Positions 304 through 5,867 of a stretch of 34,072 nt of DNA are shown here, piece after piece. Positions within the stretch are counted from its first letter, which is position 1. Every line of letters begins with the position of its first letter. A model generated the notes under the pieces. The model was not told where the DNA came from. It ran no database searches and worked only from the letters and a program-made list of their open reading frames with translations. Both the position numbers and the translations under genes were made by a program. The stretch comes from Lentisphaeria bacterium (GTDB lineage Bacteria; Verrucomicrobiota; Lentisphaeria; Victivallales; Victivallaceae): positions 1-34,072 of the forward strand of contig JAFSTC010000078.1 of NCBI GenBank assembly GCA_017450705.1, written 5' to 3'.

Positions 304-1562
304 GGGCAAAGCTCGAAAATTTTCCGGTTTGCGGCGGTTTGCGCTTCCGCATCGGAAAAGTTTTCCAGCGTCTCCCGGGCGGCGAGGAGCACGTCCTTGT
401 CCTCCTCCCCGGTTTCCGCGCCCGACAGGTCCAGTTTCCGGCAGCAGTCGGCGGCGGTGGTGCTCTCCGGGGGCAGGGCGGGGACGTAAGCCTTTTCCTC
501 GTCTCCCTCGGCCCGGAGGATCAGACCCGCGTCCAGAAGCGCCCGCAGTTCCCCGGCAAGGCGCATGGGCGAGCAATGGAGCCCTTCGAGAAGCTCCTCT
601 TTTCCCGTTGCGCCGCGGCCCTCCACGAACTTTTTGTAGATCAGCGCGGTCACCGCCAGCTGGAGGATCCTGTGCCGCCGCAGGGGAAGCGCCGAACCCT
701 GGTCGTCGAAAAGCCCCGAGTCCAGATGCTGGGCCACGAAGCCGATCTCCGCGCCGAAGAGGGCGATCTGCCACGACCACTGCATCCACATGAGGAACAG
801 CGGCAGCGCGGCGAAGCTCCCGTAGATCCGGTTGTAGCGGTAGATGGATCCCTGCAGATAGACGAAACCGTCCTGCAGTATCTGAAAGGCCAGTCCCGCG
901 ATGACGCCGGCGAAGATCGCCGGGCCCAGGCGCACCTTGGTGTTCGGCGCGGCGAAGTAGATCGCCGAAAAGACGACGATCACCAGCAGCACGGGGATGA
1001 TCGTTCCCAGCAGGCTCAGCACGTAGGCCGGAGCACCGCCGAGGAAGTTCAGATTCCCCGCCAGGCGGTCGAAGAACATCCGCAGGAAAACTCCGGCGCT
1101 GCTCAGCACCACCAGCATGATCGGGATGAGGAGCATGATCGCCAGATAATCGCTGAATTTCCGCAGCAGATTTTTCCTCGGCGGAAGTCCCCAGACGGCG
1201 TTGAAGGCCGATTCTATGCTGTTGGCCAGCCACATGACGGTCCAGATCAGCGCGACGACGCCCACGCCCGCCACCAGGCCGCCGCTGGCCTGCCTCAGCG
1301 TCGTATCCGCGAACTGGTAGACGTATTCCAGAAGCTCCTTGTGCTGGGCCAGTTTTTCGTTCAGCACGAGCCGCAGTTTCTCATCCATGGAAAATCCCTT
1401 GGCGATGCCGAACATCAGCGCCGCGATCGGCACGATGGCGAAGAGCGTGTAAAACGTGAGCGCCACCGCCCGCTGTTTGTTCTGGTCCGCACCGTAGCGT
1501 TTTGCGCTCAAAATGATGACCCGCGCTCCGAAGCGGAGCGGTCTCAGGATGTCGTCGAACAT
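300..1562 (-). CDS. yihY: YihY/BrkB family integral membrane protein
   Basis: This 420-aa protein belongs to the YihY/virulence-factor BrkB family (UPF0761), inner-membrane proteins whose biochemical role is poorly settled. The family signature is visible: an early helix with ALTFYTLFAIVPIAALMFG (about 34-52), later membrane helices around 105-130 and 140-270, and the conserved stretch around SIESAFNAVWGLPPRK. The last ~120 residues are soluble and look like the winged-helix-type C-terminal extension found in longer BrkB proteins; E. coli YihY is about 290 aa. The start is preceded by an AGGGGGG ribosome site and lies 22 nt downstream of the glnS stop, so the two are probably co-transcribed. 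Confidence 0.9.
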   Translation of the reverse strand: MFDDILRPLRFGARVIILSAKRYGADQNKQRAVALTFYTLFAIVPIAALMFGIAKGFSMDEKLRLVLNEKLAQHKELLEYVYQFADTTLRQASGGLVAGVGVVALIWTVMWLANSIESAFNAVWGLPPRKNLLRKFSDYLAIMLLIPIMLVVLSSAGVFLRMFFDRLAGNLNFLGGAPAYVLSLLGTIIPVLLVIVVFSAIYFAAPNTKVRLGPAIFAGVIAGLAFQILQDGFVYLQGSIYRYNRIYGSFAALPLFLMWMQWSWQIALFGAEIGFVAQHLDSGLFDDQGSALPLRRHRILQLAVTALIYKKFVEGRGATGKEELLEGLHCSPMRLAGELRALLDAGLILRAEGDEEKAYVPALPPESTTAADCCRKLDLSGAETGEEDKDVLLAARETLENFSDAEAQTAANRKIFELCP

Positions 1563-1584
1563 GTTTTTCCCCCCTGCGGCCTTT

Positions 1585-3264
<1,680 letters not shown>

Positions 3265-3464: not shown

Positions 3465-3540
3465 GCCAACGTAGCTCAGTCGGTAGAGCAATTCACTCGT
3501 AATGAATAGGTCGTCGGTTCGATTCCGACCGTTGGCTCCA
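3465..3540 (+). tRNA. tRNA-Thr (CGU)
   Basis: A 76-nt cloverleaf: acceptor GCCAACG/CGTTGGC, D-stem GCTC/GAGC, anticodon stem ATTCA/TGAAT with loop CTCGTAA (anticodon CGU, reading ACG), T-stem GTCGG/CCGAC with loop TTCGATT, discriminator T and encoded CCA at 3538-3540. It is preceded by a consensus promoter and followed directly by a 13-bp hairpin. Confidence 0.96.
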
Positions 3541-3592: not shown

Positions 3593-3868
3593 GGGGCGAC
3601 GCTTCGCGTCTGCCGCCGCCAGAGGGGGAGGGCCCCCTCTGGACTCCCCCCAAGCCCCGCAGTTTACCTCGGTTTTGTTTTCTCCCCTGAAAAGGCTTTT
3701 GGGGCGACGCTGCGCGTCTGCCGCCGCCAGAGTGGGAGGGCCCCCTCTGGACTCCCCCCCCAAGCCCCGCAATTCACCTTGGTTTTGTTTTCTCCCCCGA
3801 AAAGGGTTTTTTGGCGGCGCTTCGCGTCTGCCGCCGCCAGAGAGGGAGGGCCCCCTCCGGGCCCTCCG
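3593..3868. repeat. Two and a half tandem copies of a ~108-110 bp GC-rich repeat
   Basis: Copies begin at 3593, 3701 and 3811, giving periods of 108 and 110 bp; the third is cut short near 3868. Each carries a GCGTCTGCCGCCGCCAGAG core, a G/C hairpin, a CCCCAAGCCCCGC segment and a GGTTTTGTTTTCTCCCC tail. In copy 1 the hairpin is a perfect 10-bp stem (3619-3628 with 3633-3642) around an AGGG loop; copies 2 and 3 carry one and two changes in the stem. No gene is visible in 3541-4084. Long open frames there are low-complexity shadows. Confidence 0.85.
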
Positions 3869-4084: not shown

Positions 4085-4381
4085 CTAAAACGTCCGTAGC
4101 TGCGGGTATTTTGATTTCATATACTCCCAAATTATGTCGAGCCTTCTGCTTTTTTCATCATCGGGAAGATTGCTGAAAACGGCGGCGTATATCTTTTTGT
4201 GTATTTCTTTGTCGATCCTGTCATAATATTGCCCTGCAATGTACACGGCAGAATGCCGCCTGTAAAAGGGACGAATCTCAAAAAAACGATTGTCTTTGTT
4301 GAGCGCCCATCCTTGAATTTCAGAAAACTCCTCGTCAGACAATGTCGGCAACAGCTCGAAAGTCTCAATTTGATCGTTCAT
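4085..4381 (-). CDS. Hypothetical 98-aa protein
   Basis: I do not recognise this protein. It is small, soluble and charged, with an acidic N-terminal third (ETFELLPTLSDEEFSEIQGW) and a basic, aromatic second half ending in DIIWEYMKSKYPQLRTF. No membrane segment or metal motif is visible. The ATG at 4381 is chosen over the longer frame from 4450 because an AGGGAA ribosome site lies just upstream and the promoter at 4416-4444 predicts a transcript start near 4409, which would cut off the longer start. The gene is more AT-rich than its surroundings, which hints at separate ancestry. Confidence 0.7.
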   Translation of the reverse strand: MNDQIETFELLPTLSDEEFSEIQGWALNKDNRFFEIRPFYRRHSAVYIAGQYYDRIDKEIHKKIYAAVFSNLPDDEKSRRLDIIWEYMKSKYPQLRTF

Positions 4382-4415
4382 TTGATTTTCCCTGCGATCT
4401 GTGGCTATGTCCCCC

Positions 4416-4444
4416 AATATATCCGTCTCCGCGTCGAATTTCCA
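4416..4444 (-). promoter_or_regulatory. Promoter of the 98-aa gene
   Basis: Minus-strand TGGAAA (4439-4444) and TATATT (4416-4421) with a 17-bp spacer; these are the same hexamers and spacing as the glnS promoter. The predicted transcript start is about 28 nt before the ATG at 4381. Confidence 0.65.
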
Positions 4445-4520
4445 TCCCATTCAATGGAAAGCCTGAAATATTTCCTGCTGGGTCCTCCCCCGGGTGTCAC
4501 GGGCTCCGTCCTTTTCGGGG

Positions 4521-4549
4521 TTGATTTTTCCGTGAAGACGGAGTATATT
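4521..4549 (+). promoter_or_regulatory. Promoter of a candidate small RNA
   Basis: TTGATT (4521-4526), 17-bp spacer, TATATT (4544-4549). No start codon with a ribosome site follows before the terminator at 4596-4629. Confidence 0.65.
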
Positions 4550-4555
4550 CAGTTC

Positions 4556-4629
4556 CAGCCACGAGAGACTGGACTGCCCTCCGTCTTTGGCGACCGCTCC
4601 GGATGTTTGTCCCATCCGGAGCTTTTTTT
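4556..4629 (+). ncRNA. Candidate small RNA of about 73 nt
   Basis: A clear promoter (4521-4549) predicts transcription from about 4556, and a strong intrinsic terminator ends it at 4629, leaving about 40 nt of unique RNA before the terminator stem. No convincing ORF fits in that space. I recognise no known RNA family (not SRP RNA, tmRNA or 6S by their hallmark sequences). Alternatives are an attenuated leader of the gene now reduced to the GH2 fragment at 4643-4906, or a promoter and terminator brought together by deletion of a gene. Confidence 0.4.
4596..4629 (+). terminator. Strong intrinsic terminator
   Basis: GCTCCGGATG (4596-4605) pairs perfectly with CATCCGGAGC (4613-4622) around a 7-nt loop, followed by seven T residues (4623-4629). 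Confidence 0.9.
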
Positions 4630-4642
4630 GCCGATGCCCTGA

Positions 4643-4906
4643 GCCGCCCCGCTTCTCCCCGCCGCCGCCCAGTGGACGGAAGAGTTTCAGGCGGGATATC
4701 TCTCATGCGTCATCGACGCCGTGAAAGCCCGCCCCGAGATCGCGGGACTGCTCCTGTGGCAGCTCAACGACGCGAAAAGCTATCACAGGACGGGGGCGAA
4801 CATCCGCTGCAAGCCCCTGTCCCAGAATCTGGCCGGCGTCTACGATTCTTACCGCCGTCCCAAGCTGGCCGCGGCGGTCGTCCGGGAGAAATTCCGCGGG
4901 CTCTGA
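4643..4906 (+). pseudogene. C-terminal fragment of a glycoside hydrolase family 2 (beta-glucuronidase/galactosidase-like) gene
   Basis: After an in-frame TGA at 4640-4642 the frame reads on to a TGA at 4904-4906. The ~80 residues resemble the end of the GH2 catalytic barrel: QWTEEFQAGYL, a VIDAVKARPEIAGLLLWQL segment, then GVYDSYRRPKLAAAVVREKF, which matches the usual closing '...GV.D..RRPK.A...V' pattern of the family. The nucleophile and acid/base parts, normally several hundred residues upstream, are absent, and there is no start codon with a ribosome site. It lies 14 bp after a terminator and 16 bp from the convergent nucleotidase gene. I read it as a remnant left by deletion or rearrangement. 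Confidence 0.75.
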
Positions 4907-4922: not shown

Positions 4923-5867
4923 TCACTCGGCGGCGTCTTTCCCTTTCGCCGCAATGCCGAAGGGGATGTGTACCGACGGCGTGAAGTTCTGCGCGGCGTC
5001 GAGATGGGGATGCTGCTGATCGTCGAAGAAAATGTGCGGCTTCAGCGTCTCAAGAATCCGTCCCTTGTCCATACCACCGAGAAAATGGGTTTCGTCGACA
5101 GTGATGTTCCAGCTCCGCAGCGTGTTGACCACCCGGCGGTGCGCCGGGGCGCTCCGGGCAGTGATGATGGCAGTCTTCAGAAAACGCCGATAGTTCGCAT
5201 CCAGTTCTTCCCGTTCGTCCTCAAGGATCCGCAAGTTTCCGAGTTTGCGGAAAAGATCGCCGAGCGGTCCCGGCGAAATCGCCGTCTCCGCATGGGCGGT
5301 CTCGGAATCGTAAAACGCCTTGATCCCTTCCGTCTGATAAATTTTCTCCGCGCTGTCGTCGGCAATCACGCCGTCGAAGTCGAAAGCGACCCGCAGTTCG
5401 GCGTCCGCCGCGTCATCATCGGCCGCGCTGGGCAGGACCAGCCCCGCCGGATAGCCGTTGCCGAGGGCTTCGGTCACGTCGGAGCTGTTGGCGGAGAGAA
5501 AGAGCGAAACATTGTAGGCCGGGATGTAGCGGAAGGGCGAATTGCCGCGGGTGAACGCCGCCCGGATGATCCCGAGGTTGTAGTGCTCGATGCTGTTGAA
5601 GACCCGCATCCCGGTGTCGGAATCGTTGCGCGAAAGCAGCACGACCTCGACCGGCTGGCGTTCGGGAAAAACGGCGTTGAGTTCCAGAAATCTCCGGACA
5701 AAGGGAAACGCGATCCCTGGTGCGAGAACATTGCTTTCATGTTCCCGCTGATACTTGCGGTAGGCGCGCACGCCCTCTTTACGGAAGACCGCGTCGGCCT
5801 CGTCCAGCGCAAAGAGCGCGCTGGAGGCGACTGCGATCACCAGTTTTTCTTCGATGGGATATGCCAT
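4923..5867 (-). CDS. 5'-nucleotidase, NT5C1-like (HAD-type)
   Basis: The 314-aa product resembles the cytosolic 5'-nucleotidase type I family (Pfam 5_nucleotid, PF06189), which removes phosphate from (deoxy)nucleoside monophosphates. Visible are PIEEKLVIAVASSALFALDE near the N-terminus (a typical family opening), VVLLSRNDSDTG (75-86), a central HAD-like AFDFDGVIADD (161-171) with the likely catalytic and metal-binding aspartates, and a C-terminal HIFFDDQ metal-site motif. It starts 3 nt after the stop of the 270-aa gene and is the last gene of a tightly packed minus-strand run. Family assignment is fairly sure; substrate is not. Confidence 0.85.
   Translation of the reverse strand: MAYPIEEKLVIAVASSALFALDEADAVFRKEGVRAYRKYQREHESNVLAPGIAFPFVRRFLELNAVFPERQPVEVVLLSRNDSDTGMRVFNSIEHYNLGIIRAAFTRGNSPFRYIPAYNVSLFLSANSSDVTEALGNGYPAGLVLPSAADDDAADAELRVAFDFDGVIADDSAEKIYQTEGIKAFYDSETAHAETAISPGPLGDLFRKLGNLRILEDEREELDANYRRFLKTAIITARSAPAHRRVVNTLRSWNITVDETHFLGGMDKGRILETLKPHIFFDDQQHPHLDAAQNFTPSVHIPFGIAAKGKDAAE

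Follow-up and report, generated by a model that had tools for sequence, protein, structure and literature searches.

A candidate small-RNA gene of Victivallaceae, intrinsically terminated and with relatives on phage genomes

What, if anything, is transcribed when a promoter is followed within some 45 bp by a strong terminator? The question is raised by a site in a Lentisphaeria gut bacterium of the family Victivallaceae, which the original prediction had read as a short non-coding transcript with about 40 unique nucleotides, free of open reading frames and of known RNA families. The window analyzed here is the whole stretch of 34,072 nucleotides that holds this site, which is the entire contig C46 of an assembly of 3.97 Mb in 117 contigs (genome G000).

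Promoter, terminator and predicted transcript

Both signals are present as predicted, and the terminator, with 7 G-C pairs among the 10 of its stem, is sound (Table 1). On generic scans of 10 kb alone, neither is remarkable, as 7 promoter-like sites were found against 3.7 expected and 16 terminator-like sites against 12.9 expected. The predicted promoter belongs, however, to a class (TTGA-N19-TATATT) with 186 sites (102 + 84) in the window's genome against 1 for the reversed control pattern, and this enrichment argues for a small-RNA gene with a promoter of its own. In an 838-kb sample of the same genome that included the window, a strong terminator was found at most 150 nt behind 3 of 40 class promoters; among 3,000 random 150-nt windows, the control for this pairing, 31 contained one. 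The stem in the window is the longest of the three (10 bp versus 7 and 7).

Table 1. Positions of the predicted unit and its neighbors in the window
Feature	Position	Strand	Details
tRNA-Thr gene	3465-3540		upstream of the unit
110-bp repeat	3621-3840		two tandem copies, 81% alike, directly past tRNA-Thr
121-aa ORF	4085-4450	minus	upstream of the unit; no Pfam hit
Promoter	4521-4549	plus	-35 TTGATT 4521-4526; spacer 17; -10 TATATT 4544-4549
Inverted repeat	4535-4587	plus	AAGACGGAG 4535-4543 / CTCCGTCTT 4579-4587; spans the -10 box; would give an alternative stem in a transcript begun upstream
Predicted small RNA	about 4557-4629	plus	about 72-73 nt; start placed by reference to the -10 box and the base of hairpin 1
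Hairpin 1	4558-4591	plus	GCCA/TGGC, GAGAC/GTCTT, GGA/TCC; loop CTGCCC 4574-4579
Intrinsic terminator	4596-4629	plus	stem 4596-4605/4613-4622; loop TTTGTCC 4606-4612; T7 4623-4629
Gene remnant	matches near 4659-4700		immediately downstream of the terminator
5'-nucleotidase gene	4923-5867	minus	downstream

Similar promoters were also seen elsewhere. Two class promoters of the same genome, at G000:C39:50808-50836 (-) and G000:C17:17442-17470 (-), have a terminator within ~55 nt and, judged by their sequence, are candidates for further small RNAs or attenuators. Near-copies of the spacer and -10 box of the window (TTTTTCC..GAA...GGAGTATATT) precede open frames at ~1501-1540 (-) of locus L002 in G000:C62 and at 1511-1549 of L010 in genome G027, a likeness that possibly reflects a shared regulator site. 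In the same-genus genomes G028, G013 and G014 (L087 and L088, ~1501-1590 (-); L089, 44-133), a promoter precedes a short frame that is conserved among the three (MYTYGT...LLLLSLRLCGAAVSSC), maybe a leader peptide.

Within the predicted transcript, the plus strand holds only short frames opening with ATG, GTG or TTG, which are still open where the examined piece ends. The predicted product is a short transcript closed by an intrinsic terminator and encoding no protein, as expected of a small-RNA gene. Most of the 40 or so unique nucleotides between the signals form a hairpin of conserved shape (hairpin 1) that had been overlooked, as had the phage relatives reported below. Folding of positions 4556-4628 gave -32.0 kcal/mol (z = -4.73; 0 of 200 shuffles as good). 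Good folding was also predicted for a longer RNA that pairs the core with nucleotides preceding the -10 box, both in the window (z = -3.7) and in the same-genus genome G009 (z = -4.6), and an upstream transcription start is therefore possible. The element matched no Rfam family, either in a scan of the whole window at gathering score (release 15; three tRNA matches only) or in a permissive scan of five loci with E values up to 5. Acido-Lenti-1 RNA (RF01687), a structured RNA reported from Lentisphaerae in the available text of PMC2864571, was likewise not matched in these scans.

Relatives in chromosomes and phages

When the window DNA was searched against 100 genomes (E <= 0.001), 9 gave some match. 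Apart from the window's own genome, core and terminator were matched only by G009; in the other matching genomes, the similarity covered only the promoter or the gene remnant, or the tail in the case of G033. The G009 unit, a clear homologue, lies on a 13,496-base contig among other neighbor genes and consists of TTGACT-17-TATATT, the hairpin, CCTCCATCTTTTGCGACCG and the terminator, which differs from that of the window by two double changes that preserve the pairs. A model built from these two sequences only and holding terminator pairs only (R1) was run on 78 genomes of the family. Beyond its sources it found G000:C77:47694-47782 (E = 1.0e-6), a second copy and weaker relative in the window's own genome, and G054:C40:80021-80123 (E = 6.5e-6). 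This run returned 15 places, of which 4 were accepted; the rest, with E values of 0.0097 or worse, were dropped by eye as promoter only or chance. A second model (R2), run on 137 genomes, gave 18 places and the identical 4 accepted ones. The unit is rare, being known from four places in 3 of the 137 genomes of the order, plus the viral contig described below.

Pattern searches yielded further candidates that were rejected. A loose pattern matched 25 of 387 genomes of the phylum, and only the four known places were accepted, judged on the matched strings. A core pattern searched with at most 3 mismatches gave six places in 34 genomes of the genus, two real and four in apparent coding DNA, and a motif pattern gave six in the 137 genomes, three known and three unrelated. 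After a looser pattern, 46 genome-contig and 6 viral stretches were rescored with R1; the G009 contig alone was strong, and the other seven matches had E values of 0.085 or worse. Three further viral matches were judged unrelated. More copies in the family may be hidden by strict filters and divergence.

The G054 copy lies in a prophage of another genus, between the portal and terminase genes. A scan of ten proteins in this 19-kb stretch identified minor head, major head, scaffold, portal and the large subunit of terminase; the remaining ones had weak or no function assignment. Through the G054 terminase we fetched an IMG/VR phage contig (L131; terminase 81% identical), which was thus chosen independently of the unit. 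R1 found the unit at the same place in this contig (31.5 bits; E = 2.2e-7 in 29 kb). The unit overlaps, on the opposite strand, the start of a small ORF between terminase and portal in both phages, which makes a phage origin possible. A scan of 38 loci, among them 29 further terminase loci of the order and 5 additional ones from viruses, gave a convincing match in G054 alone, and a portal scan returned L131 again and nothing else. Of four viral stretches, L131 was real; the other three had no R1 match at E values up to 1.

Homologues of the G054 terminase (L102:10594-11871 (-)) occur in 65 of the 78 genomes of the family, and 56 of these 65 have just one match; the homologue in the window's genome is at G000:C68:160-1377. 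Over seven genomes, terminase identity did not track that of gltX (Spearman 0.23, 21 pairs). It did so without G022, a genome with two terminases that was dropped after the data had been seen (Spearman 0.57, 15 pairs). The widespread homologue is perhaps a domesticated prophage or a gene transfer agent.

To score the relatives by the sequence past the -10 box, we used a profile of the window and G009, which gave 12.5 bits for L131, 9.9 for G000:C77 and 6.1 for G054. None of 1,000 dinucleotide shuffles of each reached these values and most shuffles gave no score, a result that flatters G054 and G000:C77, as both had been picked from 78 genomes. The best score outside the family among 178 distinct TTG-N20-TATATT sites in the collected DNA was 1.6. 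When 843 kb of decoy-enriched loci were searched openly, L131 had an E value of 0.076, G000:C77 of 0.73 and G054 of 5.8, and a protein-coding decoy in G027 (E = 0.021) ranked above the weak relatives. The assignment of the latter depends on the combination of promoter, spacing, core and terminator.

A two-hairpin fold is common to four of the five copies. In the window, G009, L131 and G054, respectively, the outer stem of hairpin 1 is GCCA/UGGC, CGCA/UGCG, GUCG/CGAC and UCG/CGA, and the middle stem includes GAC/GUC, GGU/AUC, CCA/UGG and GA/UC. The stem letters vary and the pairing is preserved; this amounts to a kept structure with compensatory changes, as looked for in a small-RNA gene, with the helices of hairpin 1 matched by hand across few sequences. 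Four copies have the cap GGA-loop-UCC, and G009 has GGU with the third pair lost; the cap loops are CUGCCC, UUGACC, UUGACC and CUGACC in the same order, and CUUGACU in G000:C77. The terminator loop reads (C/U)UUGUCC in four of five copies. G000:C77 retains the cap and a terminator only, the latter a different one with 10 bp. The z scores of the predicted transcripts are strong in the window (-4.7), G009 (-5.0) and L131 (-5.8) and weak in G054 (-1.7) and G000:C77 (-0.5). L131 has a poor -10 box (TACATT) and a short T run, and the T run of G054 is poor. In four of five copies, hairpin 1 begins 7 to 9 nt past the -10 box, where transcription would be expected to start.

Readings of the unit

No accepted relative has a normal gene on the plus strand between promoter and terminator. 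As the unit recurs elsewhere with pair-keeping changes and without such a gene, a small non-coding transcript is its best reading, in keeping with the original prediction. Sequence comparison supplies the promoter class, the terminator, the repeated occurrence amid different neighbors, the pairing that survives stem changes and the kept loops, and on these grounds we consider it likely that the locus is a small-RNA gene of Victivallaceae, with its own promoter and an intrinsic terminator. It probably represents a new family of small RNAs whose general type is familiar, with a possible link to phages.

The surroundings could suggest a functionless relic, left when gene decay joined a promoter to a terminator, since a gene remnant follows the terminator immediately. 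We take this remnant to be the end of a glycoside hydrolase; Pfam gave no hit on 4603-4906. That the unit is found elsewhere with kept loops and pair-keeping changes makes a relic distinctly improbable. That the unit serves a downstream gene as leader or attenuator is scarcely plausible: a same-strand open frame begins ~140 nt past the terminator in G000:C77, but no such arrangement was read at the other four places.

On the minus strand, both phages encode a protein, in an ORF with an ATG. The window frame has one ATG, and no start codon was found in the G009 and G000:C77 frames within the pieces read. Four core differences between the window and G009 all fall in one codon position, which may hint at coding ancestry; no codon pattern is seen in the two remaining core comparisons, and the window-G009 differences in the terminator stem alter amino acids while preserving pairs. 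These observations leave a minus-strand protein gene in place of an RNA very improbable. Another reading is a phage-derived cis-antisense RNA that would block the small terminase-portal gene, with the chromosomal copies as captured relatives. The unit lies opposite the start of that gene in G054 and L131, phage genes surround the G054 copy, and the start-less G009 frame still resembles the L131 protein (KEG-R--GQ---AVAK), which is compatible with a phage origin. A 47-nt piece of tRNA-Arg in G009 is moreover repeated 1,031 bp on with 94% identity, ending ~85 bp upstream of the promoter, and tRNA genes are often used as sites of integration. Against it stands the scan of 38 loci with its single convincing case, and we regard a cis-antisense RNA of this kind as rather unlikely. 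In the window, the unit starts 980 bp from tRNA-Thr; this tRNA was not found in 29 same-genus gltX loci, several of which end at a contig edge.

A fuller version would have the phage antisense RNA, opposite a small gene near terminase, captured by chromosomes near tRNA genes, where the protein gene was lost and fold and loops were kept as a trans regulator, perhaps against related phages. Because the 38-locus scan produced no further phage copies, this capture is held less likely, and we think it unlikely overall.

Possible mode of action

Our preferred explanation, which we somewhat favor, is a terminated small RNA of ~72 nt that pairs in trans through two loops; that it works as a trans-acting antisense RNA at all is, taken by itself, a tentative proposal. 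Transcription would begin from its own promoter at the foot of hairpin 1. Hairpin 1 would expose (C/U)UG(A/C)CC with UCC after it, and the terminator hairpin (C/U)UUGUCC; we infer that these loops would make the first contact in pairing with mRNAs in trans. Conserved loops carried by stems that change freely suit a base-pairing and a protein-binding RNA alike; an RNA whose loops serve as a protein-binding site instead of contacting mRNA is quite unlikely, and no candidate protein is at hand.

Resemblance of the loops suggested an anti-Shine-Dalgarno mode, which we do not claim, as no enrichment was found. Over 444 predicted genes, the core bound ribosome-binding-site regions worse than gene bodies by 1.76 kcal/mol, a deficit within the range of 20 shuffled cores (mean, 2.08; SD, 0.49), and GGAGGTC was upstream of none of the 444.

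The nearest working analogue is LhrC of Listeria. According to the available text of PMC4132741, LhrC has two stem-loops, the second being the terminator, is present in more than one copy per genome, and acts through C-rich loops, the terminator loop included, with UCCC at three sites. The likeness lies in two stem-loops ending in a terminator and in multiple genome copies. The loops here differ, and the host is of another phylum; UCCC varies among the copies, the G009 terminator loop being CUUGUCC followed by U, and no homology is claimed. The small RNAs of phages and prophages covered in the available text of PMC12197685 are similar in that small-RNA units occur on phages of the same host group; they differ in that the copy in the window is on the chromosome, with no recognized prophage surrounding it. 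In the literature accessible to us on small RNAs in Lentisphaerae, Victivallaceae and Victivallis vadensis, we found no paper evidently on the subject.

With its predicted promoter, two kept loops and phage relatives, the candidate provides a concrete object to search for in RNA data, and it could connect a small RNA of the host to a phage locus.
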